IMG/VR virus record: IMGVR_UViG_3300043411_000959
Span: 1 to 23,666 of that record
DNA from: a virus
Strand: one strand, 5' to 3'
DNA: 23,666 nucleotides
This document shows positions 4,134 to 19,532 of the stretch, one piece after another. Each line of letters begins with the position of its first letter. Positions within the stretch are counted from its first letter, which is position 1. The notes under the pieces were generated by a model. It did no database searches, was not told the origin of the DNA, and worked only from the letters and a program-made list of their open reading frames with translations. The translations under genes and the position numbers were made by a program.

Positions 4134-4439
4134 ATGAAACTCGAGGATTTTGCCGATATCTCCGAAGTTCTCCGCGGCGGGATTTTTGTCCTGCTCTACC
4201 GCGGCGAAGTCGTGTATGTTGGCAAGGCCTCGCGGGCGATGCTGGGGACCATCTCCAATCTTCGCTCGAAGAACCTGCCGTCGTGGATGCCGCGGATCAC
4301 CTTCGATCAAGTCTTGATTCGCGCGGTCCACCCCGATCAGATCGAAACCGTCTATACCGGTTTGCTCGCCGAGCACCGCCCACGCCACAACCGAGACTTC
4401 GTTCCGGCCTTGACCCGGACTATGGAGCGACGGATATGA
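4134..4439 (+). CDS. GIY-YIG-fold protein, putative nuclease
   Basis: The 101-residue product shows a single GIY-YIG domain: GIFVLLYRGEVVYVG at residues 16-30 supplies the two signature strands (GIF for GIY, YVG for YIG). A charged central helix follows, and the C-terminal element ETVYTGLLAEHRPRHN (71-86) resembles the Glu-helix-Pro-x-x-Asn end of the family. Known members are endonucleases using the first Tyr, an Arg and a Glu; here the first Tyr position is Phe, so activity is uncertain. It ends in ATGA overlap with the small terminase gene, suggesting a packaging or homing-like role. No usual Shine-Dalgarno sequence precedes the ATG, consistent with the promoter placement. Confidence 0.75.
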   Translation: MKLEDFADISEVLRGGIFVLLYRGEVVYVGKASRAMLGTISNLRSKNLPSWMPRITFDQVLIRAVHPDQIETVYTGLLAEHRPRHNRDFVPALTRTMERRI

Positions 4440-4969
4440 ACATTGGTCGACCCAAGAACCCCGCTGTGATCCGCGACGTTCGCCCGATGACCCGGGCCGA
4501 CCTCGAGTCCTTGCGCCAGCCCTCAGCCCGAGTCCGGATCGCCAAGCTCCGCGACCAGCACCACATTATGGCGCGGCTCTTCGTCTCTGGGCTGTCCAAC
4601 AACGAAGTCGCAGCTGAGACCGGCTATTCCATCGCCCGTGTCGCGGTCCTCCGCAACTCCCCGGCGATGATGGAGCTTGTCGAAAAATATCGCGCCGATG
4701 ACCACGATGAATGGCGCAAGTCCCGCGACGCCACCTACGAATACATGCACCGCATCCGCGTGAAGGGCCTGCGCATCATCGAAGATGCTCTTGAAGACGA
4801 AGAGGTCAAACCCGAGTTCGCTCTCAAGGTCTTCGACTCAATGGCCGATCGCACCGAATACCACCGAAAGTCCACCAAAGAAAATATCAACATCGACTTC
4901 GCAGCCCGCCTCGAAGTTGCCATCGCCAGATCGGTCCGTGTGATCGACGCCAATCGACTCGACGACTAA
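4436..4969 (+). CDS. terS: Terminase small subunit
   Basis: ATG 4436 overlaps the upstream stop (ATGA) and has GGAG eight bases upstream. The 177-residue protein has an N-terminal helix-turn-helix over about residues 45-75, including LFVSGLSNNEVAAETGYSIA, typical of small terminase DNA-binding domains that recognise the packaging site. A long, highly charged helical region follows (about 80-150, EYMHRIRVKGLRIIEDALED), which in this family mediates oligomerisation. The C-terminal tail would contact the large subunit. The call rests on fold pattern and its place before the large terminase. Unusually, its partner gene starts only at 8730, after a tailspike cassette. Confidence 0.75.
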   Translation: MNIGRPKNPAVIRDVRPMTRADLESLRQPSARVRIAKLRDQHHIMARLFVSGLSNNEVAAETGYSIARVAVLRNSPAMMELVEKYRADDHDEWRKSRDATYEYMHRIRVKGLRIIEDALEDEEVKPEFALKVFDSMADRTEYHRKSTKENINIDFAARLEVAIARSVRVIDANRLDD

Positions 4970-5082: not shown

Positions 5083-5469
5083 ATGAAATCTTCAACCTAC
5101 CTCCGCTGGATCACTGCTTGGTGGATCACTGCCGCCGCCATTCTCGCCTTTGGTGTCTTCGCCAAGGCCCAGACCTTTGGCTCTCCCCAGCCCGTCATCA
5201 CCGCCTATCGCTACCTCAACATCACCGGCCAAGCCACGACCACAGTTAAATCCGGCGGCGGTATCCTTCATACCATCTGCATCAACACCCCTGCCGCGAC
5301 TGAAACCATCACTATCTATGACAACACCGCGGCCTCAGGCACTAAGATCGGCACTATCACTGTCTTTGCCTCAACCAATCCCTGTCTAACCTACGACGTC
5401 AACTTCACCACCGGCCTGACCCTCGTCACCGCGACAGCCTCGTCCGATCTGACCGTGAGCTACTACTAA
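5083..5469 (+). CDS. Beta-rich phage protein with Sec signal peptide
   Basis: ATG 5083 is preceded by AAGGAA at seven bases. The 128-residue product starts MKSSTYLRWITAWWITAAAI and continues with a hydrophobic core ending in AKA-QT near residue 27, a clear Sec leader. The mature part contains GGGILHTICINTPAATETIT and IYDNTAASGTKIGTITVF. This 'lHTi-iN ... iTiYDnt-asGtkI' arrangement recurs in small beta-sandwich proteins near phage tail fibres, as I know them. The last codons overlap the tailspike start (TAATG). It is likely an accessory fibre or envelope-acting protein. Export is predicted from the leader only. The family is recognised by pattern, not by search. Confidence 0.8.
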   Translation: MKSSTYLRWITAWWITAAAILAFGVFAKAQTFGSPQPVITAYRYLNITGQATTTVKSGGGILHTICINTPAATETITIYDNTAASGTKIGTITVFASTNPCLTYDVNFTTGLTLVTATASSDLTVSYY

Positions 5470-8453
5470 TGCGTAAGCTCCTAGCCCTCCTCACAGCCTT
5501 CGCCAGCCCTGCACTGGCCCAGACTCCTGCGGGCGTAATCAACGCCCCGATCTACGCAACTGGCTATATCTCTCAGGTCGGTGGAACCAACGTCACCACT
5601 AATATCCCTCCCCAGCCAAATCATCCAACTAATCTAAACATCTATACCACCGGTGCCATCTCAGGCACGTGGACCATCAAACTCCCAAACCCTGCATTTG
5701 AAGGGCAAATGCTTTCCTTCAACTGCGGAGCCGCGGCTAATGCTATCTCCGTGACTTCTTCTGATGGCTCTTCAATCGATTCCACTATACCTTCAACATG
5801 TTCCATAAATTCAGGCTTCACCATCCAATTCGATCAACGTTCAAATATCTGGCGTAATATAGGTTCAAATAATACTTCGACATTTAAGCCATTCACTGGC
5901 GTTGCTTCGCAATGGCCGTGGCAGTTAAATTCTGACGGCACATGGAACATGAAACAGCCCGATGCTTCCGACTCCACATTCACGCAGACCGGAACGGGCG
6001 CTGTCCAGACGACGCTTGACGCGCGCACCAAGTTACAGGCGATCTACCTCGAAGACTTCGGCGCTGCGGGTTCTAGCGGGTCCGCAGACGCTACCGCGTT
6101 CACCAATGCCATTGCAGCCTGTTCTGCGGCAGGCGGCTGTGTTCTGACGGCGAAGGCGGCGCGGACGTATATCCCGAATGCCTGCGGATATAGCGTCAAT
6201 TTCGATAACTTCGTTATGGACTTACCCGTTGGGACGGTTATCAAGCCTAGCACTTCGTCGGCCTGTACGTTCCTGACGGTCAATGGCGCTTATTACGCCT
6301 CGACAACCCTTTCCGCAAATCTTGCTGCAAGCGCCACATCGGCAACGGTGGCCTCTACAACTGGCATGACCGCGGGCAATCTTATTCAGTTCGACGTGAC
6401 CCGCACACAGAAAGGTACGTCCACAACCTCCGTTACCATCGGGACGGGTTCAAAGACATGGACGGTTACGGAAAATAGCGCCAACCAGGCCGCGTTCCAT
6501 ATCGGGCAATATGTCACTTTCTCCGATGGGTCGGGCAACACAGCCAGCGGGTTAATCACGGCCTATTCTGTTGGGTCTATGACGGTCAATGTCACGACAA
6601 CGACCGGCAGCGGGACCAAGACCTCATGGACCGTAACGGACCCAAAGGTTGACGGAACTCCATTCGCCTTTGTGAGCGTGATAACAGGCCGCGTTGGGTC
6701 GGTTGTGTCGTTTTCCGATCCTGTCCCGCCGACGCTTTCCATAAACACAAACGAATCCGCGACGGTTATTGCCGGGGTTCCCCGTAAGAATGTGCGCCTG
6801 TCTGGGTTCACGCTTGATGGAAGCAATGCAACGTCCAGCGCAACGGCGGTTGGTGTCTCGATGGCCGTTGTTCAGGATTCGGGTGTCGACATCAAGACCG
6901 TGAATTGGGCCACGTCTGCGCCTACGACCGGAGCGGGCAGCGCGTTTCTTCTTGTCGGCTCCTACGGAGGCCGGTTTAATGTGGTGGACGATGGCAGCGG
7001 GTCCAAGAACAATGCTGCTGTCTGGTTCTCAAAGATCACTAATGCCTATTGCTCGGCTACAGCGCGCAATGGGTATGGCTTTGGCGTCCAGCTTTCATAT
7101 GCAGCTTATAACACTTGTGTCGATCTTGTCGGCGTTGGCCAGCAGTATCGAGGCGTCAAACTGCAAGGCGCGATAGCCAACAACCTGTTCGGCGTGGTCG
7201 GGAATAACAACGGTCTGGCGGCGGGTTATACCGGCGTCACGTTGTCTCGCGGGTCCAGCTACAACGTCCTGACCGGCGTTGTCGCCAATAACAATTACGG
7301 GTCCGTTTCCGGCAACCGTATGGGCCTTTGGTTCTCGGATCAATACAATCTCAATAACACCATCAACGGCCTTACCGCTTACAATAACGGCGATTATGAG
7401 TTGTACGTTGGCGCATCGGACACGGCCAACACAATCAACAATGCGGCATTCGGCAATTATACCCACGTCCTCAATATCGGCTGCGCCCGCATTAACGGGA
7501 TGAATAACAGCGCAGACGTTTGGGATTATCAAACGACCGGAACGACAACTTGCACCGGCGGTCTTACGTGGACGCTTTCGCGCCATGATGGGGCGGCTGC
7601 TGCATTCGGCAACATCGCGTCCATGTCTGTTCGCGGGTCCAACAATGTTGGCGGCGATCTGGAATTCGGGCGCTTTGATTGGCTGTCCGCATCCGTCACA
7701 CCCGGCTCTGAAACAGGTCAGCTTAACATTGCGCTTGCCAACAGCGGGACGGTTGCAGCGAGGTATAACTTTGCGCCCACAGCGTTCGCCCCGGCGGCGA
7801 CGGCAACAAGCGACCTTGGCGCGGCGTCTTATGCCTTCCGCGATGCATACCTTAGTGGCTCTGTCAAGTTCTCGACCGGCAGCACGTTCACGCTTACGGG
7901 CAATTACTCGTTTACAGGCGCGTTGACGGGCGCAACCTCGATCACCTTCCCGACCTCGGGAACGCTGGCGACCTTGGGCGCGAACACGTTCACGGCCGGT
8001 CAGGTTGTCAACGCTGGTCCGTCCGTGCCGCTGAATATCTCGGCTGACAGTTATTATTACACACAGCTTTCGGCAAACGGGAACAGCGGCCAGACGGGAT
8101 TAAACCTCATCACAAAGGACGGCAGCGGCACGAACTATAACGGGTTTTGGTTTCAGACCGCTTCCGGCATGATTTTTCAAGGCCCCTATCAGGGAACGAT
8201 CCAGTTCGGAACATCGTCCACGACGGCAGGCGGTTCCACCGTTTCGATGCTGACGCTCAACTATGCGTCGAACGCCGTTTTCAATTTTGGCATCACGGTT
8301 GCGTCAACAACTCTCCTAACAACTTCTGTTTCGCTGGCAAACGGTGCTGCGGCGGCTGTTGGAACGCTGACAAACGCGCCAGCGGCGGGCAACCCTACCA
8401 AATGGATACCGATCAATGACAACGGCACCACTCGTTACATTCCTGCGTGGTAA
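5469..8453 (+). CDS. Tailspike/tail fibre, beta-helix, with Sec signal peptide
   Basis: This 994-residue protein starts MRKLLALLTAFASPALAQTP, a Sec leader with A-L-A cleavage near residue 17. Residues 20-165 are a beta-rich N-terminal part. AVQTTLDARTKLQAIYLEDF at about 179-198 is the usual linker into a pectate-lyase-like right-handed beta-helix (DFGAAGS... TAFTNAIAACSAAGG). The segment around residues 318-380 (SVTIGTGSKTWTV ... MTVNVTT) is a fibre insertion module known in phages. Parallel beta-helix turns rich in Asn/Gly follow to about residue 700. The C-terminal part (YAFRDAYLSGSVKFSTGSTF, ending YIPAW) is typical of fibre tips. It probably binds or degrades host surface polysaccharide. 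The position between the terminase genes and the leader are unusual. Part of 5600-5890 is AT-richer than the rest. Confidence 0.85.
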   Translation: MRKLLALLTAFASPALAQTPAGVINAPIYATGYISQVGGTNVTTNIPPQPNHPTNLNIYTTGAISGTWTIKLPNPAFEGQMLSFNCGAAANAISVTSSDGSSIDSTIPSTCSINSGFTIQFDQRSNIWRNIGSNNTSTFKPFTGVASQWPWQLNSDGTWNMKQPDASDSTFTQTGTGAVQTTLDARTKLQAIYLEDFGAAGSSGSADATAFTNAIAACSAAGGCVLTAKAARTYIPNACGYSVNFDNFVMDLPVGTVIKPSTSSACTFLTVNGAYYASTTLSANLAASATSATVASTTGMTAGNLIQFDVTRTQKGTSTTSVTIGTGSKTWTVTENSANQAAFHIGQYVTFSDGSGNTASGLITAYSVGSMTVNVTTTTGSGTKTSWTVTDPKVDGTPFAFVSVITGRVGSVVSFSDPVPPTLSINTNESATVIAGVPRKNVRLSGFTLDGSNATSSATAVGVSMAVVQDSGVDIKTVNWATSAPTTGAGSAFLLVGSYGGRFNVVDDGSGSKNNAAVWFSKITNAYCSATARNGYGFGVQLSYAAYNTCVDLVGVGQQYRGVKLQGAIANNLFGVVGNNNGLAAGYTGVTLSRGSSYNVLTGVVANNNYGSVSGNRMGLWFSDQYNLNNTINGLTAYNNGDYELYVGASDTANTINNAAFGNYTHVLNIGCARINGMNNSADVWDYQTTGTTTCTGGLTWTLSRHDGAAAAFGNIASMSVRGSNNVGGDLEFGRFDWLSASVTPGSETGQLNIALANSGTVAARYNFAPTAFAPAATATSDLGAASYAFRDAYLSGSVKFSTGSTFTLTGNYSFTGALTGATSITFPTSGTLATLGANTFTAGQVVNAGPSVPLNISADSYYYTQLSANGNSGQTGLNLITKDGSGTNYNGFWFQTASGMIFQGPYQGTIQFGTSSTTAGGSTVSMLTLNYASNAVFNFGITVASTTLLTTSVSLANGAAAAVGTLTNAPAAGNPTKWIPINDNGTTRYIPAW

Positions 8454-8457
8454 GGCC

Positions 8458-8682
8458 ATGCGCTCGCTCATAGCCCTCTCCTGTGTCAACGGCGTCCCTG
8501 TTGTCGCCAAGGCGCAACAGCCGCCTACGCCGACGGTCGATGAAATGCAAGCGCAATGCCTTGTCGAAACCGGTCAGCTTCGTGTAGCGCTCGGACAGGC
8601 TCAAGCGCAGATCATCCAGCTTCGCAAGGAGAATGCGGACCTCAAGGCCAAGGGGGAACAGAAGCCGGAGGTCAAGAAGTGA
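8458..8682 (+). CDS. Small secreted coiled-coil protein
   Basis: ATG 8458 comes four bases after the tailspike stop; no strong Shine-Dalgarno sequence fits, so translation may be coupled. The 74-residue product begins MRSLIALSCVNGVPVVAKAQ, a weakly hydrophobic leader with AKA-Q cleavage near residue 19. A Pro-rich stretch, then a coiled coil (ETGQLRVALGQAQAQIIQLR, about 37-56) and a Lys/Glu-rich tail follow. Size and layout recall envelope-spanning lysis accessory proteins, but no lipobox or transmembrane anchor is present, so I do not call a spanin. Its place after a fibre gene mirrors the gene at 18403. Confidence 0.65.
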   Translation: MRSLIALSCVNGVPVVAKAQQPPTPTVDEMQAQCLVETGQLRVALGQAQAQIIQLRKENADLKAKGEQKPEVKK

Positions 8683-8711
8683 AGCGCCTTATCCTCGCAG
8701 CGGCCTTATAA
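8679..8711 (+). pseudogene. Ten-codon signal-peptide stub
   Basis: GTG 8679 overlaps the upstream stop (GTGA) and is preceded by GGAG with eight-base spacing, a proper start signal. It encodes VKRLILAAAL and then TAA. This looks like the first ten residues of another secretion leader, as in the neighbouring genes, ended by a stop. It may be the remains of a gene deleted at the cassette border, a coupling peptide, or chance. Confidence 0.4.
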
Positions 8712-8729
8712 ATTAAACTAGGACCACCA

Positions 8730-10238
8730 ATGAACGACGACAAACTCTTCCAATGGCTGGCATCCGTCAAAGGCGATCCCCTCGCCTTTGTGATGGGTGC
8801 TTTCCCTTGGAACGAGCCCGGCACGGTCCTTGAAAACTCGGCAGGCCCCGAGCAATGGGCCTGCGATCTTATGAATCGAATCCGCGATGGCCTCGTCGAC
8901 ATAAACACCGCCATCCAAGAAGCCATCGCCTCAGGCCACGGTATCGCCAAGTCCGCGACTGTCGCCCAGCTAACTCTTTGGGCCTTCTGCACATTCCCCG
9001 ACACCCGCGGAGTTATCACCGCCAACACCGAGACCCAGCTTAAAACCAAAACATGGGCCGAACTTGGTAAATGGTTCAACCTCTGCTTCTTCGCGCGTGA
9101 ACACTATACCCTGACCGCAACCGGCCTCTTCTCTAAAGACCCCAATCGCGAGCGCACTTGGCGCATCGACATGATTCCGTGGTCCGAGAAGAACCCGGCG
9201 GCGTTCGCGGGCCTCCACAACAAAGGCAAACGCCTGCTTCTGATTTTCGACGAAGCCTCCGAAATCCCCGACATCATCTGGGAAACCGCAGAAGGTGCCC
9301 TCACCGATGCCGACACAGAAATCATCTGGCTCGCCTTTGGCAACCCCACGCGAAACATCGGCCGATTCCGCGATTGCTTTCCAGGAGGCAAATTTGCCAA
9401 CCAATGGCACCATCTCCAGATTGATTCGCGAACTGTCCGCATTACCAACAAGAAGCGACTGCAAGGTTGGATCGATGCGTATGGTCTCGATTCCGATTTC
9501 GTTCGCGTCCGTGTTCTAGGCGAGTTCCCTCGCAAAGGTCTTATGGAGTTCTTCTCCGCCGCTGCCATTGACGAAGCAATGTCTCGTGAGGTCTATATCG
9601 ACCGCTACGAGCCTCTTGCCCTTGGCGTTGACGTTGCCCGCTTTGGTATGAATGCGTCGGTGATCTTCCCTCGTAAAGGCCGCGATGCCAGAACCATTGA
9701 GCGCTTTCGCTACAATGGATATTCCACAACCCAACTTGCCAATGAAGTCACCAACATCAACTCTCAATTCCACGCGGATGGCATCATGATCGATGGTGGC
9801 GGTGTTGGCGGCGGCGTTGTCGATCAAGTCCGAGCCAAGCGCTTGTTCTGCTACGAAGTCCAATTCGGCGGCAAAGACATTATCCACAATACCATTTGGG
9901 GCAACACCGGCGAGAAGTATGCCAACAACCGTGCTGCTATGTACGGTGCCTGCCGCGCTTGGCTTGCCACTGGCGCAATCCCCAACGACCCAGAACTCCG
10001 CCGACAGATGCTAGCGATCCGCTACACCTACAACGCCAAAGACGAAATCATCCTCGAACGCAAAGAAGACCTTGTCGATGAAGACGGCAACGGTATCGCC
10101 CTCGATGATATCGACGCTTTGGTCTTGACTTTCTCCCATCCTCTGTCACGATCAGCATATGCTGGAGGCGACCTCCCCCAGCCCAACCTTGTCACTAGTG
10201 AGTGGGACCCATATTCCCCAGAACGCATGCAAGCATAG
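8730..10238 (+). CDS. terL: Terminase large subunit
   Basis: The 502-residue protein starts at ATG 8730 after AGGA with six-base spacing. The ATPase half has a deviant Walker A, ASGHGIAKSA (67-76), a Walker B LLLIFDEAS (169-177) with catalytic Glu, and a coupling motif GNPTR (204-208). The nuclease half has RNase H-like acidic positions: D301 in LGVDVARFG, D355 in IMIDGGGVGGG, and D-D-I-D-A-L near residue 470. It cuts concatemeric DNA and powers packaging through the portal. All key motifs are present, and length fits the family. The gene normally lies next to the small terminase, but here 3.7 kb of tailspike cassette separates them. Confidence 0.93.
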   Translation: MNDDKLFQWLASVKGDPLAFVMGAFPWNEPGTVLENSAGPEQWACDLMNRIRDGLVDINTAIQEAIASGHGIAKSATVAQLTLWAFCTFPDTRGVITANTETQLKTKTWAELGKWFNLCFFAREHYTLTATGLFSKDPNRERTWRIDMIPWSEKNPAAFAGLHNKGKRLLLIFDEASEIPDIIWETAEGALTDADTEIIWLAFGNPTRNIGRFRDCFPGGKFANQWHHLQIDSRTVRITNKKRLQGWIDAYGLDSDFVRVRVLGEFPRKGLMEFFSAAAIDEAMSREVYIDRYEPLALGVDVARFGMNASVIFPRKGRDARTIERFRYNGYSTTQLANEVTNINSQFHADGIMIDGGGVGGGVVDQVRAKRLFCYEVQFGGKDIIHNTIWGNTGEKYANNRAAMYGACRAWLATGAIPNDPELRRQMLAIRYTYNAKDEIILERKEDLVDEDGNGIALDDIDALVLTFSHPLSRSAYAGGDLPQPNLVTSEWDPYSPERMQA

Positions 10239-10247
10239 GAGGCCTAT

Positions 10248-10466
10248 ATGGCAAGTGCATTCAAAGCGATTGGCAAGTTCATCTTCGGTGGTGGCGGCAG
10301 CGGCACCCAGCCGGCTGCTCCGCCAGCCCAGCCTGCTCCGGCCCAGAATCCATCGGGCACCCCGAACACCAACAAGCCCACTGCCCAGCCGACGTTCCTT
10401 TCCTCGGCTGCTGCTGCACCTACGGCTGGCGCAGTTGCTGGCGGCAAGACCTTGCTCGGGAGCTAA
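10248..10466 (+). CDS. Small Pro/Ala/Gln-rich protein between terminase and portal
   Basis: ATG 10248 follows AGGAGG by five bases. The 72-residue product starts MASAFKAIGKFIFGGGGSGT, a short amphipathic helix and Gly stretch. It then becomes a low-complexity Pro/Ala/Gln/Thr region and ends in PTAGAVAGGKTLLGS. It is predicted largely disordered. Short proteins of this style often lie between terminase and portal genes in podoviruses; their role is not established. It starts ten bases after the large terminase stop and is followed closely by the next small gene. Confidence 0.75.
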   Translation: MASAFKAIGKFIFGGGGSGTQPAAPPAQPAPAQNPSGTPNTNKPTAQPTFLSSAAAAPTAGAVAGGKTLLGS

Positions 10467-10469
10467 TCC

Positions 10470-10655
10470 ATGGCTATCGTTGTACCTTTCGGAAAAGCTC
10501 CTGCTCAGCGCCTGCCAATGCCTGATGAAACCTTCACTATGGCAGCAGCCGCGCTTATGCACGAGAACGGGCGATTGGTACAACGAGACGATCCGAAACT
10601 TGAGGTTCAGGCAGACGCCAACGCTAAGAGCGACAAAAAGGAACCGAAGCCGTGA
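10470..10655 (+). CDS. Small protein of unknown function before the portal
   Basis: ATG 10470 is preceded by GGGAG at seven bases. The 61-residue product begins MAIVVPFGKAPAQRLPMPDE and contains a short helix (FTMAAAALMHENGRLV), followed by a charged disordered tail rich in Lys, Asp and Pro. The stop overlaps the GTG start of the portal gene (GTGA at 10652-10655), indicating coupled translation. It may be a minor virion or assembly protein, but nothing in the sequence proves it. Confidence 0.75.
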   Translation: MAIVVPFGKAPAQRLPMPDETFTMAAAALMHENGRLVQRDDPKLEVQADANAKSDKKEPKP

Positions 10656-12388
10656 CCCAAGTCCTCACCACCAAAGACTACGCCTACCGCCGATACGTCG
10701 AGGGCCGGTTGCTGTCCCTTCGTGTCAACCGCTACTCTTGGTGGGTCCACTGGCGCGAACTCGCAGATTACTTCCTGCCTCGCCGGTATAAGTGGCTGAT
10801 CACTCCCAACCAGCAGTCCCGCGGTTCGCCGCTGAACCAGAACATCCTTGACTCAACTGGTTGCGTCTACGCGCGTAATCTTGCGTCAGGTCTTGTCTCT
10901 GGCAAATCCTCCCCAACCAGTCTTTGGTTCCGGCTGCGCGTTGGCTATTTCGATTCGACCCAGACTTCCCCAGTCTCACTTTGGCTTGCCGAAGTTGAGC
11001 GGATCATGTATCTGATCTTCTCCGAATCTAACTTCTATAATTCTATTGCCACCTTCTACTACGACCTCGTTGTCTTCGGCACAGCCTCGCAGCTGATCTA
11101 CGAAGACTATGACAACGTCATCAATTGCATCAACCCCTGCCTCGGCGAATACTACGTCGACATTGATGGCAAATACCGCCCGACTGTATTCTATCGCGAG
11201 TTCACTATGACCGTGATGGCCGTGGTCCGCGAATACGGCTACGAGAATTGCTCGCAAGCTGTTCGTGAAGCCTACGACCTCAAAGACGGCTCAGGCCTTT
11301 CCCGTGAAATCATCGTGGCCCATTCGATCGAACCCAACACCGATGGCCGCGCCAAAGAGTTCGGCATCCCCGAACGCTTCAAGTTCCGCGAGGCTTACTG
11401 GGAATGGGGCGGATCAGCCTCTCCCCAAGGCGGCGCTGCCAGTCCTCCTGGTTTCCTCCGCAAGCGTGGATACGAAGAACAGATGGCAATTGTCGGGCGC
11501 TGGGACATAGTCTCCAACGATCCCTACGGCCGATCCCCCGCGATGGACGGCCTGCCTGACCAGAAGCAAGTCCAGCTTGAAACCCGCCGCAAAGCCCAAG
11601 CCATCGACAAGATGGTCAACCCTCCGCTGGTCGCAGATGTTCAGCTGAAAAACCAGCCGGCCAACCTGACCCCCGGCGGCATTACCTTTGTCTCTGGCTA
11701 CTCGGCCTCTGGCAAACCCGGCTTTGCCTCGGTCTACGACACCAAGTTTCCGGTCCAAGAAATCACGGCCGACCTTGAAGAGGTCAAAGGCCGTCTCGCG
11801 GAGATTTTCTTCAATGATGTGCTTCGAACCGCTTCCCAATATGAGACTCGATCTAACGTCACAGCCGTTGAGTGGGACCTTCGGAAGTCCGAATCTTTGG
11901 TTATGCTTGGTCCCGCCCTTGAACGAATTGACAACGAAGTTCTACGCCCTGTGCTTGAGCGAGTCTTTGCTATCGCCAACCGCGCTGGCATTATTCCCCC
12001 AGCCCCACCCGAAATCCAAAACCAAATGATGACCATCGACTTCGTCTCGATGCTCGCTCAGGCGCAGCAGGCCACCAAGGCCGGATCGATCGAACGCGTC
12101 TTGTCTCTTGCTGGCAACATGGCAGGCGTCATCCCCGGGTCCACGGATAAAATCAACTTCGACTATGCGCTTGACAAATATTCCAGTCTACTGAACAATG
12201 ATCCTAAGATGATGAAAACAGATGATGAAGTCGCCAAAATCCGTGAGGATCGCGCTCATCAGGAGCAAGCGGCGCAGCAGGCGGATATCGCCGAGAAGCT
12301 TTCGCGTGGTGCCAAGACTCTCGCCCATGCCGATACCGGTGGCGCAAGTCCGCTCCAGCAACTAGCGGGAGGCGTTGGTGCCTCGTAA
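10652..12388 (+). CDS. Portal / head-to-tail connector protein, T7 gp8-like
   Basis: The start is GTG 10652, with AAGGA nine bases upstream and GTGA overlap with the previous stop. The 578-residue product matches the podovirus head-to-tail connecting family. Its N-terminal part reads RYSWWVHWRELADYFLPRRY (26-45), followed by NILDSTGCVYARNLASGLVS, which is strongly characteristic. Middle regions carry the clip and stem elements (for example FYYDLVVFGTASQLIYEDYD). The C-terminal 100 residues are helical and Gln/Ala-rich. Twelve copies would form the packaging channel at the capsid vertex and attach the tail. It places this phage among short-tailed phages. The length suits the family. Confidence 0.92.
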   Translation: MTQVLTTKDYAYRRYVEGRLLSLRVNRYSWWVHWRELADYFLPRRYKWLITPNQQSRGSPLNQNILDSTGCVYARNLASGLVSGKSSPTSLWFRLRVGYFDSTQTSPVSLWLAEVERIMYLIFSESNFYNSIATFYYDLVVFGTASQLIYEDYDNVINCINPCLGEYYVDIDGKYRPTVFYREFTMTVMAVVREYGYENCSQAVREAYDLKDGSGLSREIIVAHSIEPNTDGRAKEFGIPERFKFREAYWEWGGSASPQGGAASPPGFLRKRGYEEQMAIVGRWDIVSNDPYGRSPAMDGLPDQKQVQLETRRKAQAIDKMVNPPLVADVQLKNQPANLTPGGITFVSGYSASGKPGFASVYDTKFPVQEITADLEEVKGRLAEIFFNDVLRTASQYETRSNVTAVEWDLRKSESLVMLGPALERIDNEVLRPVLERVFAIANRAGIIPPAPPEIQNQMMTIDFVSMLAQAQQATKAGSIERVLSLAGNMAGVIPGSTDKINFDYALDKYSSLLNNDPKMMKTDDEVAKIREDRAHQEQAAQQADIAEKLSRGAKTLAHADTGGASPLQQLAGGVGAS

Positions 12389-12749
12389 TGCCTCCCAAAC
12401 CAAGGAAATCCGGCGCTATGAAAAAGCTGCCAAGCTCCGAGAGCAAAACCGGATTAACTTCATCGTCGCAGCTATGTCAACTGAGGCTGGTCGAACATAT
12501 TTCCGGGATATCCTCGCGACTTGTCATATCTTCGCGGACCCATTCTCCGGCGATGCCTTGCGTGAAGCGTACTCCAAAGGTGAGCGTAACATAGGCCTGT
12601 ACATCTACAACGACATAGTCACTCATTGTCCCGACTACTTTGTCTTGATGATGAAAGAAGCCAACATAGAGGAACAAGTAAATGACCGACGGAACGACGA
12701 CGATCGAGACACCGACGACACCGATGACGGAGACTCCGCTGGCGAATGA
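12378..12749 (+). CDS. Bbp19-like phage protein
   Basis: GTG 12378 is preferred over TTG 12375 because GGGAGG lies five bases before it. It overlaps the portal end by 11 bp. The 123-residue product contains AAMSTEAGRTYFRDILATCH at about 31-50, then IFADPFSGDALREAYSKGER and NIGLYIYNDIVTHCPDYFVL. This matches the Bbp19-like pattern ('aGr-fl-dlL---gvf--pf ... G-RniGl-l---l...p-y--mm-E') found next to portal and scaffold genes in BPP-1-like podoviruses. The tail is very Asp-rich and coded in the 68 bp that overlap the scaffold gene in another frame. Its function is unknown; a role in head assembly is inferred from context. Confidence 0.8.
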   Translation: MPRNASQTKEIRRYEKAAKLREQNRINFIVAAMSTEAGRTYFRDILATCHIFADPFSGDALREAYSKGERNIGLYIYNDIVTHCPDYFVLMMKEANIEEQVNDRRNDDDRDTDDTDDGDSAGE

Positions 12750-13344
12750 CCCGGCTGCTCGGACTGAAACGGGAGAAATCATTGACCGATCAGCAACTCC
12801 TGCCCCTGAACCTGCCGCAGAGCCCAAATCCGAAACCTCTGCCCCAGAATCCTACACCGATTTTTCTGTCCCCGAAGGACATACTCTCGACGCAGCCACC
12901 ATTGAATCTGCAACCCCCATCTTCCGAGAACTTGGGCTCAGCCAAGATCAGGCCCAGAAGCTGGTAGACTTCTACTCCGCGAAGATTGGCGAAATCAATT
13001 CGCAGAACGAAGGCTTCATGGAGCAGATGCGGACTGAGTGGCGCAATCAGCTCAAGGAAGACAAAGACATTGGCGGCAAACTCGATGCTGTCAAGGTCAA
13101 CGTCGGCCGAGCCCTTGATCGAATGCCCGAAGGTATCCGCGAACCCTTCAAGGAAGCTATGAACCTGACTGGTGCTGGCGACCACCCCGCAGTCATCAAA
13201 GCCATGAACTACTTCGCAGAGCTTGTGAACGAAGGTACTCCCGTCCGCGGCGACAATCCTTCTCCACATGGTCAGTCTCGTACAGGCGTTGAAACTCGGC
13301 CGTCGGCAGCGTCGGCCATGTACCCGAACCTCCCGAAACGCTAA
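12682..13344 (+). CDS. Scaffold / capsid assembly protein
   Basis: ATG 12682 follows GAGGA by eight bases. The 220-residue acidic protein begins with a Thr/Pro/Glu-rich disordered region (residues 1-58), then SVPEGHTLDAATIESATPIF, then helices including LGLSQDQAQKLVDFYSAKIG (about 81-100). A charged helical segment QMRTEWRNQLKEDKDIGGKL and a basic C-terminus follow. Acidic disordered N-terminus, helical middle and position immediately before the capsid gene are standard for podovirus scaffolds, which guide capsid assembly and leave. The gene overlaps the Bbp19-like gene by 68 bp out of frame. Confidence 0.85.
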   Translation: MTDGTTTIETPTTPMTETPLANDPAARTETGEIIDRSATPAPEPAAEPKSETSAPESYTDFSVPEGHTLDAATIESATPIFRELGLSQDQAQKLVDFYSAKIGEINSQNEGFMEQMRTEWRNQLKEDKDIGGKLDAVKVNVGRALDRMPEGIREPFKEAMNLTGAGDHPAVIKAMNYFAELVNEGTPVRGDNPSPHGQSRTGVETRPSAASAMYPNLPKR

Positions 13345-13411
13345 GCCCCACGTGGGATGAACGCAATGGCCAGATTAGCGGCTCGGAAACCTAACCCAAA
13401 GGAACTCAGAT

Positions 13412-14455
13412 ATGGCAACCATTGGTAATCTGGCCGTCACTTATGCCGACTGGGCCAAGCGTATGGACGATGGCTACAAGGTCGCGTCCATCATCGAAAT
13501 CTTGTCGCAGACCAACGAAATCCTTGACGACATGCTTGTCATGGAAGGCAATCTGCCGACGGGCCACAAGACCACGATCCGCACGGGCCTGCCTCAGGCT
13601 ACGTGGCGTCTGCTGAATGCTGGCGTTCCTAACGCAAAGTCCACGACCGCACAGATCGTTGACACCTGTGGCAACCTCGAAACCTACGCGGTGATCGACA
13701 AAGACATTGCCGATCTCAATGGCAACACCGGCGAGTTCCGCCTCTCTGAGGTCCGAGCCTTCCTTGAAGGTATGTCGCAGCAGGTTGCCTCGACTCTGAT
13801 CTATGGCAATCAGCATACCAACCCTGAGCGATTCACTGGACTTGCCCCGCGCTATTCCACCAAGACTGCGGCGAACTCTGCGACTGCGGCGAACGTCCTT
13901 GATGGCGGTGGCACTTCCTCGACCAATACTTCGATCTGGACTCTGGTCTGGGGCGATGACACTCTCCACGGTACCTTCCCCAAGGGCAAGATGACTGGCC
14001 TCCAGCATCGTGACATGGGTGAGTGGCCGGTGGCAGATTCGTCGGGCAACACTTACCAAGCCTATCGCGATCACTTCAAGTGGGAAATTGGTCTGGTCCT
14101 TCGTGACTGGCGCTACTGCACCCGCATCGCGAACGTGGACGTCAACGCTCTGACCGGCGTGTCGGCTGCGAACCTGATCAACCTTCTGGTCCGCGCGCTC
14201 TATCGCCTGCCAACTGCTCCCTCGGGCGCGACGGCGATTCAGTCCTCCGATACCCCGGCTGTCCGTGGCAACATGGGCCGTACGGTGATTTACTGCAACC
14301 GCGTGGTTCGCACCTACCTCGACCTCCAGGCGATGAACAAGACCAACGTCCTGCTCCGCCTCGAAGAGTGGGATGGCAAGGTTGTCACCACGTTCCGCGG
14401 CATCCCGGTTCGCACCTGCGATGCTATCCTGAACAATGAAGCTCAGGTCGTCTAA
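13412..14455 (+). CDS. Major capsid protein, BPP-1-like
   Basis: ATG 13412 has AAGGAA seven bases upstream. The 347-residue protein starts MATIGNLAVTYADWAKRMDD and includes DDMLVMEGNLPTGHKTTIRT at about 39-58, RFTGLAPRYS near 143, and a C-terminal LLRLEEWDGKVVTTFRGIPV. This is the layout of the major capsid family of BPP-1-like podoviruses (HK97-type fold expected: N-arm, E-loop near 45-80, P and A domains). Hundreds of copies form the icosahedral shell. A 67-bp gap with a CCCACGTGGG palindrome precedes it. It is followed by the cement protein, as in relatives. Confidence 0.9.
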   Translation: MATIGNLAVTYADWAKRMDDGYKVASIIEILSQTNEILDDMLVMEGNLPTGHKTTIRTGLPQATWRLLNAGVPNAKSTTAQIVDTCGNLETYAVIDKDIADLNGNTGEFRLSEVRAFLEGMSQQVASTLIYGNQHTNPERFTGLAPRYSTKTAANSATAANVLDGGGTSSTNTSIWTLVWGDDTLHGTFPKGKMTGLQHRDMGEWPVADSSGNTYQAYRDHFKWEIGLVLRDWRYCTRIANVDVNALTGVSAANLINLLVRALYRLPTAPSGATAIQSSDTPAVRGNMGRTVIYCNRVVRTYLDLQAMNKTNVLLRLEEWDGKVVTTFRGIPVRTCDAILNNEAQVV

Positions 14456-14471
14456 GAAAGGACCCCTAGCC

Positions 14472-15029
14472 ATGATTCTCGACAATCTTCTCACCTTCAC
14501 CGGCACGTCGAATGGCGCAACCGGTGGTATTACGGCCGGTGCCCAGACGGACCTGCCGACGACCGGCACTCAAGCTGCGTCCAATATCATCGACCTCGGC
14601 GTTACGTCCGGTGTTCCTAGCTCTGCCAATGGCGGCGGCGCTCGCGATATTGGTGTGGGCGACGATCCGGCAATGAAGCTGTCGGCGTTGGTTACGACTG
14701 CCATTACCGGCGGCACGAGTCTTCAGCTCCAGCTACAGGGCGCTCCTGATAACGGCTCTGGCGCTCCGGGTTCCTACACCACGATGTGGACTTCGGGTGC
14801 TATTGCCGAGGCCTCACTTGTGGCTGGCGCCCAGATTGCCAACATTGACGTTCCGCGTCCGGCTCCAGGCCAGGCTCTGCCTCGTTATCTCAAGCTCAAC
14901 TTTATCTCGGTCGGCACCCATTCTGCGGGCGCAATCGAGTGCGGTATCGTGCTTGATCGTGACGATCAGATTCTTGGCTCGGGTGGTGTCTACTCTGGCT
15001 ATCCCGCTGGCCTCACTGTCTCCAACTAA
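14472..15029 (+). CDS. Bbp16-like capsid cement protein
   Basis: ATG 14472 is chosen over an upstream in-frame start inside the capsid gene because AAAGGA lies nine bases before it. The 185-residue product begins MILDNLLTFTGTSNGATGGI. It then has NIIDLGVTSGVPSSANGGGA followed by RDIGVGDDPAMKLSALVTTA. The series 'iDLG ... aRDIGvGddp ... LqlqLQgapDngs ... RYLKLNFisvGthsAGaIecgiVLDrDDQ' matches the Bbp16-like family, the cement or decoration protein beside the BPP-1 capsid gene. It would clamp the outer shell. Gly-rich insertions are seen near the start. Confidence comes from pattern and position. Confidence 0.85.
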   Translation: MILDNLLTFTGTSNGATGGITAGAQTDLPTTGTQAASNIIDLGVTSGVPSSANGGGARDIGVGDDPAMKLSALVTTAITGGTSLQLQLQGAPDNGSGAPGSYTTMWTSGAIAEASLVAGAQIANIDVPRPAPGQALPRYLKLNFISVGTHSAGAIECGIVLDRDDQILGSGGVYSGYPAGLTVSN

Positions 15030-15042
15030 AAGGAACCCTGCC

Positions 15043-15669
15043 ATGATTCGCAAGCTTCTCCTTGGAACTGTGGCAGGGCTCACCCTCTCGGGTGTTGCCC
15101 TTGCACAGGTCAATGTTGTTCCGCAGGTCGGCGTTATCTCGGCCATTCTTAAAAAGGCTTCGTACTCGGCGGTGGCCCTCGCGCTTCCTCCGGCGGCGTC
15201 GGCTACGGATATCGCGTGTATTGCTGGGTCTGCCACGAAAACGATCATTATCCGCAAGATTGTGATTTCTGGTTCGGCTGGTACTCTTGTGACTGCTCCG
15301 TTCACGTTGCTGCGTTATACCTCCGTAGATACAGCTGGTACCGCTGCAACTACCACTGCGAACTGGGCCAATACCATTTCGAAGCGTGACACAACTGACC
15401 CGGCTGCTTCGGCGACGTTGATTTCGTATTCGGCTAATCCGACAATTAACGACGCGTCCCCAACGTATATTGCATCGGCTGAACTAACCTTGCCGGTTAC
15501 CTCTGCTGGCACTGTAACGCGGCCGCTTATTTGGGACTTTGACACTCCGTTTTCCTTTGTGAAGGGCGTGGTTCTCCGCGGTGCCAGCCAGCAGGCTTGC
15601 ATCAACCTGAATGCAGTCTCAGTCTCGTCCGGACTGCTTCATGTGGCAATCGACTGGACGGAGGAATAA
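15043..15669 (+). CDS. Phage beta-sandwich virion-type protein with Sec signal peptide
   Basis: ATG 15043 has AAAAGGA eight bases upstream; longer frames into the cement gene lack support. The 208-residue product starts MIRKLLLGTVAGLTLSGVAL followed by AQ, a clean Sec leader cut at A-L-A near residue 21. The rest (YSAVALALPPAASATDIACI, TKTIIIRKIVISGSAGTLVT, and a C-terminal WDFDTPFSFVKGVVLRGASQ) matches small beta-sandwich proteins encoded among phage virion genes, whose relatives as I know them start without a leader. So either the leader was added here or the product acts in the envelope. It sits between the cement gene and a conserved gene of unknown role. Confidence 0.8.
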   Translation: MIRKLLLGTVAGLTLSGVALAQVNVVPQVGVISAILKKASYSAVALALPPAASATDIACIAGSATKTIIIRKIVISGSAGTLVTAPFTLLRYTSVDTAGTAATTTANWANTISKRDTTDPAASATLISYSANPTINDASPTYIASAELTLPVTSAGTVTRPLIWDFDTPFSFVKGVVLRGASQQACINLNAVSVSSGLLHVAIDWTEE

Positions 15670-15673
15670 GCCA

Positions 15674-16174
15674 ATGGCTCGCTGGAAACTGATGGCAGCC
15701 CATTACCTCAATGTCGAAGGCGAGGAATGGGAATACCAAGAAACCAACCGAACAACCGGCCGACCGCAGCGGGTGAAGTTCCCCGTTCCGCGGTTGCTTG
15801 ATATCCGCGATCCGGATTGCTGGACGAACCGTTGGGGCAACAAAGACAACGCCGACGGCGAAATCATTGTTTGCTACGCGGGCAAGGGCGAATCTGACGA
15901 CGTTATCTTCAAAGGCGATCCGACTCCGGATATGCTCCCTGTCGATGATGAGGCCCGAGAGATTTCGGCCAAATTTGAGCACCTTTGGAAAGCAAAGCCG
16001 GAATCTATGGCCGGAGATTTCTCTCAGTCGTTGATTGACAAGTTCCAGTCTGATCTTGCGGTGGCCCAGGCAAAATCCGCCGAGATTCCGGGTATGTCTG
16101 AGTTGATCGCCAACATTGGCAAGCTCGCTGAGAGCAATCAGAAGGTCCTCGAATCCGTCACTCGGAGGGTTTAA
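15674..16174 (+). CDS. Conserved phage structural-region protein of unknown role
   Basis: ATG 15674 is preceded by GGAGGAA at seven bases, ruling out the longer frame. The 166-residue product begins MARWKLMAAHYLNVEGEEWE, then YQETNRTTGRPQRVKFPVPR, then a 'DIRDPDCWTNRW' segment and GEIIVCYAGKGESDDVIFKG. This N-terminal pattern recurs in podovirus genomes after the cement gene and is typically annotated as unknown. The C-terminal half is helical (SLIDKFQSDLAVAQAKSAEI) and could form a coiled coil. The position suggests a minor head or head-tail protein. There is no signal peptide, in contrast to the gene just before it. Confidence 0.8.
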   Translation: MARWKLMAAHYLNVEGEEWEYQETNRTTGRPQRVKFPVPRLLDIRDPDCWTNRWGNKDNADGEIIVCYAGKGESDDVIFKGDPTPDMLPVDDEAREISAKFEHLWKAKPESMAGDFSQSLIDKFQSDLAVAQAKSAEIPGMSELIANIGKLAESNQKVLESVTRRV

Positions 16175-16176
16175 TC

Positions 16177-16548
16177 ATGGGTCTTATCTCCACTGGCCCC
16201 GGATCGCCACTGGCTTTTGCGTCGGCCAGTGGGGGTAAGATTTATGCCTACAATAATATCTCTGAGAACGCAGCGGCTGTAGTTGCGGCTGCGAATCAGT
16301 TTCGTCAGAAGATTTTGTTTCACAATCCCGGGGCGAATGATCTATTCGTTGCCCCGGCGAATGTCCAAAACACTGGTTCGAATGTGGTGTTGTCACCATC
16401 TAACGCAGCCCTCGGCGGATGCTTTCGAGTCTATGGCAACGGCGGAACTCTTGTGATCGAGGGTGAGTGCCAAGGTGCCTTTCAAGCATTTGCTTTGACT
16501 GGCGCTGGTTCGTCCAATCCTCTCACAGTGATGGATTCAAATGTTTAA
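16177..16548 (+). CDS. Small beta-rich phage protein
   Basis: ATG 16177 has GGAGG eight bases upstream and starts two bases after the previous stop. The 123-residue product has a conserved-looking core, RQKILFHNPGANDLFVAPAN (about 43-62), followed by ALGGCFRVYGNGGTLVIEGE and CQGAFQAFAL. The arrangement 'i-fHNPga-dlyV-P ... alGG-f-vy-gg-lvi-GecqgawqAfa' is found in small phage proteins near fibre genes; it suggests a single beta-sandwich. There is no leader. The stop overlaps the SGNH fibre gene by 8 bp, implying coupling. It may be a fibre-associated or decoration protein. Confidence 0.75.
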   Translation: MGLISTGPGSPLAFASASGGKIYAYNNISENAAAVVAAANQFRQKILFHNPGANDLFVAPANVQNTGSNVVLSPSNAALGGCFRVYGNGGTLVIEGECQGAFQAFALTGAGSSNPLTVMDSNV

Positions 16549-18391
16549 CATTCTTATCCTTCTTCTAGGATTGCTTGCAGCGCCGGCGATGGCTCAGACC
16601 TGCCCGACGCGGCCATCTAGCGATAGTTCCAATGCATGTGCCAACACAGCTTTTGTTGGTAACTCATTCGCATCGGTTCAGGCTGGACCTCTTACCATAG
16701 GCAAACCTCCCGGCGGGTATGTAGTCATTTCAGGTTCACCCTCTCCACATACAGGTTACATTTCGTGGTATCGCCCAAATGGAACACGAGTTGCATTTCT
16801 TGGTAACGATCCAATTGATAATTCGCTGACCCTAGATATGCAAGGGGGTGTGTTTTTTCTAACTAATGGATCGATGAACGCCACTACAATCAACATGACC
16901 GGCTGCTACGTCTATGGTGTTGCTTGTTTGACTGCATCGCAACCGGTATCTTTGAATGCAACCTCTACATTGCGCTATGGCTACATTGGCTATGGCGATT
17001 CTATCACTGAGGGTCTTGGCGCGACGACTGTAGCCAACTCTTATATGGGAATCCTCCAAACAGATTATGGAGTCAACACTCCAATATTCACCAACTACGG
17101 CGTCACTGGCTATACCCTTGCCGACATGCAGGCGCGGGTGTTCAACACGTTAACGGCTCCAGTTGGTGGCGCAAATCCGCTAGTATCGATGTTCATCGGT
17201 GCTAATGATGTAACTTCCATCGGCAATGCACTTTATGCAACCAGCTATAAAGCCATGTATACAGCCACTGCCGCTTTCTCTGGAATCTCGGAGAGCCTGT
17301 ACCTTTCAGGAACTTATTCCGGCAATGTTCTTACAGGATCGTGGTCGACAGATACGACCTATTCTTCATTCAGCGGCAAAACGACGACCGCCAATGCAGC
17401 GACCTATTCAGTCAATGCCTATTCATCGAGTGGCGCGCTCTACCTCTACTACGGCTCTTATCTCTCATCCGGCGGCACATTCACAGTCGCGATTAACGGA
17501 ACACCGGTTGCTGATCAAATCACCGGAAACACAGTGATGACCTCGCAACCGCCTGTTGCATTTCTAACGTCGACAGGCTTGACGCGGGCTGTAGCCGCTG
17601 CGAGATATATCGTCCCAGCTAACACATTGCTCACAGTACAGATCACCGTGACCTCGGCGAGTGGCGCGGGCAATCCGGTTTCGATCTATGGCGTCGCCAC
17701 TCCACCCTCAAAACTTCGCGGCATATCCGCGCCAAAGGTGTTTCTGGCCGGTGCCATTCGCCAGCCTGACGATACAAACAGCGCCGCGACTGCTATCCTC
17801 AATGCTACGAACAAATACGTCGCGACAACGCTCGCGGGTGACGGCCTGAACGTCAATTTCGTCGACGTGAGGGCCTATCTTAACCAGTCGATCGACATGG
17901 CGAACGTGCCGACCATGAACTGCGCAGCCGTTACACCTTCATGGGCATATGGCCATCCCAATGACTGTGGCCATCGCCATATTGCTCAGGCTTTTGAGGA
18001 TGCAATCAATGCGGCGCCTGTTAATTACTTCTCCACCTTCGCGCAAGGTGGTGGTGGCTTGGCGGGTGCAGCGAATTATTTCTCATTCGTAAATGCAGAT
18101 TCCATTGCGATGGGCTTGATCTCTGGTGCAACCCGTGCAATTCGCCTCGGTGCAGATAGCACTTCATTTATCATCGGCGGCGTCAACAATACAGGTACAG
18201 CCTTTACACCGCTTGTATTTGAAGGAAGTACATTATCCTTCCATACCAATGGATCGACACCTGCGCTAAACATATCTGCCGGGCAGGTAATCCAGCTTCC
18301 AGCCGTGACAACGGGAACACCAGCCGCGTCGCTATGTCTTGATGCAAGTGGCAATATCATCAAGAAAACGACGGCCGGTGCTTGCATATGA
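16541..18391 (+). CDS. Tail fibre with SGNH-hydrolase domain and Sec signal peptide
   Basis: The 616-residue product starts MFNILILLLGLLAAPAMAQT, a Sec leader cut at A-M-A-Q. Next comes a tail-fibre signature (CPTRPSSDSSNACANTAFVG, 21-40, the 'DSS-x-ATTAFV' type). An SGNH/GDSL hydrolase domain follows: block I GDSITEG (152-158, Ser154), block II NYGVTG (185-190), block III GANDV (220-224, Asn222), and a late D-C-G-H (474-477) giving the Asp-His pair. Between blocks III and V lies a beta-sandwich insertion of about 150 residues. The C-terminus ends ASLCLDASGNIIKKTTAGAC, a usual fibre tip. It likely removes acetyl or acyl groups from surface polysaccharide. The DNA is AT-richer than its neighbours, suggesting transfer. 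Confidence 0.88.
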   Translation: MFNILILLLGLLAAPAMAQTCPTRPSSDSSNACANTAFVGNSFASVQAGPLTIGKPPGGYVVISGSPSPHTGYISWYRPNGTRVAFLGNDPIDNSLTLDMQGGVFFLTNGSMNATTINMTGCYVYGVACLTASQPVSLNATSTLRYGYIGYGDSITEGLGATTVANSYMGILQTDYGVNTPIFTNYGVTGYTLADMQARVFNTLTAPVGGANPLVSMFIGANDVTSIGNALYATSYKAMYTATAAFSGISESLYLSGTYSGNVLTGSWSTDTTYSSFSGKTTTANAATYSVNAYSSSGALYLYYGSYLSSGGTFTVAINGTPVADQITGNTVMTSQPPVAFLTSTGLTRAVAAARYIVPANTLLTVQITVTSASGAGNPVSIYGVATPPSKLRGISAPKVFLAGAIRQPDDTNSAATAILNATNKYVATTLAGDGLNVNFVDVRAYLNQSIDMANVPTMNCAAVTPSWAYGHPNDCGHRHIAQAFEDAINAAPVNYFSTFAQGGGGLAGAANYFSFVNADSIAMGLISGATRAIRLGADSTSFIIGGVNNTGTAFTPLVFEGSTLSFHTNGSTPALNISAGQVIQLPAVTTGTPAASLCLDASGNIIKKTTAGACI

Positions 18392-18402
18392 GGAACCTCA
18401 AT

Positions 18403-18624
18403 ATGAAAAGCCTATACATATTCCTAGCCTTGTTTGCAACTTCAGCTTATGCCGAGGAAGTTTCTGAGCCGCCGACTGTCACACTTACCGCATCGGATAT
18501 CGAAGCGTTTCGTGACTATGCGCGAGCAGAAGGCGCCGCCAACTATGCAGTAGGACTTGCGTTGGAAAAGGCTCGACCTACGATCAATAAAATAAACGAA
18601 GCCTTTAAATCTGTCAAGAGATAA
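18403..18624 (+). CDS. Small secreted helical protein
   Basis: ATG 18403 follows GAGGAA by seven bases; two upstream in-frame ATGs lack a Shine-Dalgarno sequence. The 73-residue product begins MKSLYIFLALFATSAYAEEV, a classic Sec leader with A-Y-A cleavage at about residue 18. The mature part is a short helical domain (TASDIEAFRDYARAEGAANY and onward to a Lys-rich end). It follows the SGNH fibre as the gene at 8458 follows the first tailspike. It could be periplasmic or a fibre partner; no lysis motif is visible. Confidence 0.75.
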   Translation: MKSLYIFLALFATSAYAEEVSEPPTVTLTASDIEAFRDYARAEGAANYAVGLALEKARPTINKINEAFKSVKR

Positions 18625-19329: not shown

Positions 19330-19532
19330 TGACCGATAAACTTGAAGATTGGCAGCAGCGCGTTGTCGATGAGCAGAGTGAACTCTTTGATCGGCTTGAA
19401 AAGCTTGTCGAGTTCACTGGCAGCGCCAAGTTCAAGGAACTTCCTGCCGATAAGCAGGAACAGCTTGTTCAGCAGGCTCATCATATGAACGCTTATAATG
19501 ATATCCTGACCGCTCGGATCGAGGCGTTCTAA
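19329..19532 (+). CDS. Small helical phage protein
   Basis: ATG 19329 shares its A with the upstream stop, and AAGGAA lies seven bases before it. The 67-residue product starts MTDKLEDWQQRVVDEQSELF and forms two helices: QQRVVDEQSELFDRLEKLVE, then EQLVQQAHHMNAYNDILTAR. The pattern 'qqRVvdE-seL-drleKL--F ... f--Lp--kqeqL--Q---M--Y-diL--RI' is a frequent small phage protein family (crAss001_48-related in some annotations), with no assigned function. It ends with TAATG coupling to the tail tube gene. Confidence 0.75.
   Translation: MTDKLEDWQQRVVDEQSELFDRLEKLVEFTGSAKFKELPADKQEQLVQQAHHMNAYNDILTARIEAF

Follow-up and report, generated by a model that had tools for sequence, protein, structure and literature searches.

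Predicted Sec-type leaders point to a probable export route for tail fibres and small virion-region proteins of uncultured soil podoviruses

The IMG/VR virus record IMGVR_UViG_3300043411_000959, analysed here over its whole length of 23,666 nucleotides (nt; the 23.7-kb window), carries the head and tail operon of an epsilon15/BPP-1-like podovirus, with GP7 capsid, portal and tail tube genes in order. Several genes inside this operon, two of them for large fibre-like proteins, begin with N-termini that resemble Sec signal peptides, and leaders of this type recur among about 100 related soil-phage loci. They probably mark an export route for tail fibres and small virion-region proteins in a large group of uncultured soil phages. 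The predicted export is well supported, and docking of the exported proteins on the virion is what we infer in addition.

The six open reading frames that the first-pass annotation had listed with Sec signal peptides indeed begin at positions 5083, 5469, 8458, 15043, 16541 and 18403 (genes are named hereafter by their first position), and their predicted cleavage sites are followed by Q, Q, Q, Q, Q and E, respectively. It was also confirmed that the set is bounded: none of the capsid, portal, protease and tail-tube genes has a leader. The N-termini were evaluated by a hand-made signal-peptide scorer combining the charge of the n-region, the hydrophobic core and a matrix for positions -3, -1 and +1; 17 E. 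coli leaders gave 12.6-22.6 in its calibration, and a leader was called at a score of at least 12. Five of the six scored like E. coli Sec signal peptides, in the range of 17-21 (5083 19.1, 5469 21.0, 15043 19.5, 16541 17.9, 18403 17.0), with a positive n-region, a hydrophobic core and small residues at -3 and -1 as signal peptidase I substrates have them; 8458 was only borderline (11.7-12.9), and the non-leader genes of the window reached 9.5 at most.

The gene finder had chosen the starts without leader information. Ribosome-binding sites of the AGGAAC type, like that of the capsid gene, are present at the starts of 5083, 15043 and 18403, and in the case of 5469 and 16541 the upstream gene's stop overlaps the start. 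After shuffling of the first residues, no more than 0.2% of the sequences scored as high as the native N-terminus for the five strong leaders, and 1% did so for 8458; internal methionines of core proteins gave 2 false positives in 1543. These controls speak against chance or misplaced starts as the origin of the leaders. Homologues of 8458 and 18403 were not found among the fetched related loci. The former has to be treated as uncertain because of its weak score, its two possible starts (8416 or 8458), the missing homologue and the odd number of mature cysteines, and the latter because it is an orphan, despite its good score. The real set of the window is four well-supported genes and two uncertain ones.

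Relatives were fetched with the 15043 protein (22 loci) and with the capsid protein (80 viral loci), together with 24 loci from bacterial genomes, and their genes were likewise called without leader information. Leaders were present in 219 of 798 non-redundant soil-lineage proteins versus 1 of 361 proteins of the core virion families, and in the capsid-fetched loci taken separately in 222 of 912 versus 1 of 477. Alanine stands at -1 in 204 and at -3 in 172 of the 219 leaders and glutamine at +1 in 176, where it should be considered that the scorer itself favours alanine. Entire families are leader-bearing: the 15043 family (55/55), cluster 8 (45/45), cluster 10 (38/38) and, nearly so, cluster 13 (27/29). 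Most leader genes (302 of 329) are located between the cement-protein-like gene and tail tube A, in what we call the main cassette, and 22 of the 329 in a second slot between the small (TerS) and the large terminase (TerL) genes. One to nine leader genes were found in 28 of the 29 complete cement-to-tail-tube-A intervals, 94% of leader genes follow the previous gene within 30 nt, and the gene next after cement is leader-bearing in 83 of 89 lineage loci versus 0 of 21 loci of Acetobacteraceae and other relatives. Among the leader proteins scanned, none contained a lysozyme or spanin domain that would indicate a signal-arrest-release (SAR) endolysin or another lysis protein.

The leader also holds up within a single family. 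In the alignment of 29 homologues of 15043 the mean identity is 38% in the leader and 45% in the mature part, and a conserved block starts at the invariant Q+1 (Q22), that is, at the predicted mature start. The strong score is nevertheless kept by every family member, whereas with 40-50% of the leader residues replaced at random it would survive in 26-44% of cases.

Cysteines tend to be paired in proteins that become oxidised outside the cytoplasm. The cysteine count is even in 190 of 204 cysteine-containing mature leader proteins and in 93 of 226 core proteins; counted by protein family, 66 leader families are even and 9 odd, compared with 27 even and 31 odd leaderless ones (Fisher p 3e-7). 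Leader proteins of at least 300 amino acids (aa) contain 1.58 cysteines per 100 aa, the leaderless fibre-like proteins of the same intervals 0.37. The two cysteines of the fibre motif C-x2-RP-x2-D-x2-NAC-A-x-T-x-FV were both present in 17 cases and both absent in 6, and a single one was never seen; in 16541 the motif reads CPTRPxxDSSNACANTAFV and lies directly downstream of the cleavage site. In the 15043 family Cys59 and Cys186 are nearly invariant. This parity supports the view that the predicted export is real.

Behind their leaders, proteins of the relatives contain a Collar domain (E 1.4e-14), pectate lyase/beta helix or GDSL domains or match tail-fibre PHROGs, so tail fibre or tailspike domains are present in several of them. 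In the window 16541 matched PF13472 (GDSL, E 2.5e-10), and 5469 had no Pfam or PHROG match. Both have the conserved N-terminal end and the variable distal part of a tail fibre: the N-terminal ~60 residues of 16541 are common to relatives, the N-terminal ~130-260 residues of 5469 are common to other genes of the TerS-TerL slot (in L025, L002, L024 and L008), and the remainder of each is unmatched. Scans of IMG/VR with these two proteins returned no relatives, their bodies being unique, and tblastn against isolated phages gave no close homologues of 5469, 16541 or 15043.

The link to the virion comes from a putative adaptor, since at 45 of 47 junctions the gene behind an adaptor of cluster c12 or c16 bears a leader, mostly with a 4- or 8-nt overlap. 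In the relatives L079 and L090 an in-frame fusion joins the c16 adaptor to leaderless fibres with 0-1 cysteines, and in L090 tail-fibre PHROG matches come right after the adaptor part; in L064 the adaptor similarity is only weak, but an S74 chaperone domain is present. Most near-complete contigs have no leaderless fibre gene after the ejection proteins, only small genes being found there, so most of them lack the epsilon15/BPP-1 arrangement with fibre genes at that place; the window ends before that region. An ejection-type protein of ~1790-2040 aa with zero cysteines stands behind the internal virion proteins in G001-G004, G007, G008, G012 and G015.

Structure prediction was applied to two of the small leader proteins. 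The AlphaFold model of 15043 is a jelly roll (predicted local distance difference test, pLDDT, 84), whose best solved-structure matches (Z 7.7-9.4) are headed by plant virus capsids; a tail-fibre domain from Agrobacterium phage 7-7-1 and the turret of a haloarchaeal virus come next, and C1q ranks lower. Jelly rolls are widespread, and the predicted fold says nothing about function. The isolated phages LIMEzero and CVT22, which are listed among the similar predicted folds, have leaderless proteins of corresponding length, the assignment being by length only. Homologues of 5083 (72-78%) occur in L024 and L035, and leaders are present in three of the four members of cluster 57; its model contains 8 strands behind the leader helix (pLDDT 69) and was too weak for a confident fold.

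Taken together, we lean slightly towards the view that the fibres or spikes and the small beta-sandwich proteins are Sec preproteins, which would fold in the periplasm and dock around lysis. To the wider proposal, that the receptor apparatus is built outside the cytoplasm, with exported fibres that acquire their disulfides in the periplasm and, at lysis, are attached by way of a cytoplasmic adaptor to heads and tails already completed, we would give an even chance. The leader proteins would cross the inner membrane through Sec, signal peptidase I would cut at AxA-Q and Dsb enzymes would form the disulfides in the periplasm; once lysis opens the inner membrane, the folded fibres would dock on the adaptor (16177 family), which would already be in place on the tail assembled in the cytoplasm. 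The receptor-binding parts would benefit from stabilisation by disulfides. Among the options raised in the first-pass annotation, an unusual virion assembly fits best with the fibre and tailspike domains and the c16 adaptor-fibre fusion, and the conserved AxA-Q and the disulfide signature speak against uncleaved anchors. Its export idea gains from the family-wide leaders, the cysteine parity and the block conserved from the cleavage site onwards; its envelope action keeps a foothold in the O-antigen-ligase-like gene described below.

The leader proteins might also be exported without becoming parts of the virion, as secreted or envelope-bound effectors which modify the surface of the host, prevent superinfection or loosen the matrix ahead of release; we consider this rather unlikely. 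GDSL, pectate-lyase and lectin-like domains are also found in secreted enzymes, the relative epsilon15 encodes serotype conversion genes, several cassettes include a weakly O-antigen-ligase-like membrane protein, and the leader-bearing esterase gp40 of Xanthomonas phage PBR31, the only protein for which the PBR31 paper mentions a signal peptide, may help in lysis according to that paper (PMC10975493). However, the leader genes are tightly spaced within the head-tail operon, Collar domains and tail-fibre motifs come after the cleavage site, a leaderless adaptor-fibre fusion exists, and with effectors in place of fibres most near-complete genomes would be left without a recognisable fibre. The membrane-type proteins in question are hydrophobic, ~290-360 aa long and encoded inside the leader cassette (L036:12559-13650, L092:12563-13654, L073:2731-3801, L102:12252-13130). 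One cassette membrane protein gave a weak, below-cut-off match to O-antigen ligase (Wzy_C); this concerns a neighbouring gene of relatives, and the leader proteins themselves matched no superinfection-exclusion or serotype-conversion family.

It is improbable, in our estimation, that the leaders are no export signals at all and only resemble signal peptides by convergence, as hydrophobic N-termini for trimerisation or for uncleaved anchoring in the tail or the ejected pore. Folding in the cytoplasm is indeed the rule for the virion proteins of tailed phages, yet alanine at -1 and -3 and glutamine at +1 dominate the leaders, the 15043-family leader is variable while the residue next to it is invariant, and cysteine parity separates leader from leaderless proteins. 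Mixed fates, where the large fibres would be exported into virions and the small beta-sandwich proteins (15043, 5083, clusters 8, 10 and 13) would have a role at the envelope or in head decoration, have a similarly small probability: small leader genes are kept in L064, L079 and L090 although the large fibre there has no leader, and the jelly roll of 15043 is weakly similar both to phage fibre or turret domains and to C1q/TNF-type proteins, but the two groups share leader type, operon and cysteine parity, and no direct evidence separates them.

Several points weigh against periplasmic folding and docking of the fibres. The scorer is hand-made and is not SignalP; the evidence for export, cleavage and disulfide folding is all sequence, and the uncultured members are known from their genes alone. 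Leaderless fibres stand in the same interval in the relatives L006, L064, L068, L079, L090 and L102, therefore export is not essential for fibre attachment, and the adaptor fusion was seen for c16 only, not for c12, the family of the window. The virions of phage Milano have disulfides throughout the tail and no export is reported for them (PMC10811340), thus parity alone is not proof. Periplasmic fibres may be diluted before they meet virions, which is a difficulty for docking, and the weakly O-antigen-ligase-like membrane gene hints at a possible envelope function for part of the cassette.

The assembly of tailed phages is taught as a cytoplasmic process. Coat proteins of filamentous phages are Sec-type preproteins, and these virions assemble in the membrane during extrusion; the soil lineage would share such virion preproteins with them, but it is tailed and differs in the membrane assembly. 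The order of terminase, portal, protease, GP7-type capsid, cement and tail tube is the same as in the epsilon15/BPP-1-like podoviruses (Uetakevirus, Rauchvirus; BcepC6B, Jess A), where, however, the fibres come after the ejection proteins and, except BcepC6B gp19, are leaderless, whereas the leader fibres of the soil lineage lie between cement and tail tube A. Leaders are missing from the fibre genes of epsilon15, BPP-1, Jess A and a phage of Rhodobacteraceae. Conventional tail fibres and tailspikes share the collar, pectate-lyase and GDSL domains and the TAFV-type motif with the soil-lineage fibres, which differ by the Sec-type leader in front and by being rich in cysteines in even counts.

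Isolated examples are present in three cultured phages. BcepC6B gp19 of Burkholderia (score 17.1) and PBR31 orf35 (16.3) are annotated as fibre or structural proteins and have a leader and even mature cysteines, but each is a single gene beside a leaderless tailspike in another operon slot. The tail fibre of Bradyrhizobium phage ppBdUSDA122-1 is like those of the soil lineage (865 aa, leader score 18.3, collar E 2.9e-10, 18 mature cysteines), and the adjoining 482-aa gene has a leader too; this genome differs by having a tape-measure gene and another head module. Just after the leader fibre of ppBdUSDA122-1 (L170, OP596612) an acyltransferase gene lies on the opposite strand (15383-16507), a possible surface modification function. 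In Bradyrhizobium phage ppBeUSDA76-1 (L179, OP596613; 21065-22555) the annotated major capsid protein begins like a signal peptide (score 20), which is either a wrong start or a real oddity. No report of exported tail fibres in tailed phages was found in the literature, most subscription papers not being searchable, and matches concerned lysis proteins or unrelated subjects; the searched papers on the cultured examples do not discuss exported fibres.

As for the host, the short leaders suggest a Gram-negative bacterium. Searching the Acidobacteriota and the order of the Telmatospirillum metagenome-assembled genome with the 15043 family returned only the already known contig of that genome. Capsid relatives in Alphaproteobacteria are 42-58% identical, and the gene calls at these loci, which are poor and thus weak evidence, contain no leader cassette.

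The features of the window are collected in the table. The cement-like gene matches BPP-1 Bbp16 and epsilon15 gp8 in position, the order being as in these two phages, and the probable small terminase had no Pfam match. With 350 aa for tail tube A and 940 aa for B, both are far longer than their counterparts in other relatives (about 200 and 690 aa in L110 and L116), and residues 123-235 of tail tube A match a head-decoration PHROG.

Table. Genes of the window, with leader features and the basis of their assignment
Feature	Coordinates	Strand	Leader and cysteines	Basis and remarks
Probable small terminase	4436..4969	+		position relative to TerL, cluster c11; left border of second slot
Small beta-rich protein, 128 aa	5083..5469	+	leader 1-29, AKA-Q; 2 mature Cys	TerS-TerL slot
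Large fibre-like protein, 994 aa	5469..8453	+	leader 1-17, ALA-Q; 10 Cys	
Orphan, 74 aa	8458..8682	+	borderline leader, AKA-Q; 1 mature Cys	start maybe 8416; membership uncertain
Large terminase	8730..10238	+	no leader	phrog_2 E 1.5e-33, tblastn to epsilon15-like TerL; right border of second slot
Portal	10652			
Protease	12682			
Major capsid protein, epsilon15 gp7 type	13412..14455	+	no leader	PF20911 GP7 E 2.5e-133; query for fetching relatives
Cement-protein-like gene	14472..15029	+	no leader	phrog_427 E 1e-13 (function not named); left border of main cassette
Jelly-roll protein (predicted), 208 aa	15043..15669	+	leader 1-21, ALA-Q	adjoins cement gene
Putative adaptor, 123 aa	16177..16548	+	leaderless	cluster c12; stop overlaps fibre gene start by 8 nt
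Tail fibre or spike, 616 aa	16541..18391	+	leader 1-18, AMA-Q; 8 mature Cys	GDSL esterase domain 151-244
Orphan, 73 aa	18403..18624	+	strong leader, AYA-E; no Cys	
Tail tube protein A	19532..20584	+	no leader	phrog_394 tail protein E 9.8e-33; right border of cassette
Tail tube B	20594-23416			

If the proposed route is true, a late extracytoplasmic step would be added to the assembly of these phages, and their infectivity would depend on the Sec and Dsb systems of the host. Furthermore, the fibres of uncultured soil phages would become recognisable by a leader and even cysteines beside the cement gene, and BcepC6B, PBR31 and ppBdUSDA122-1 make the idea testable in culture.

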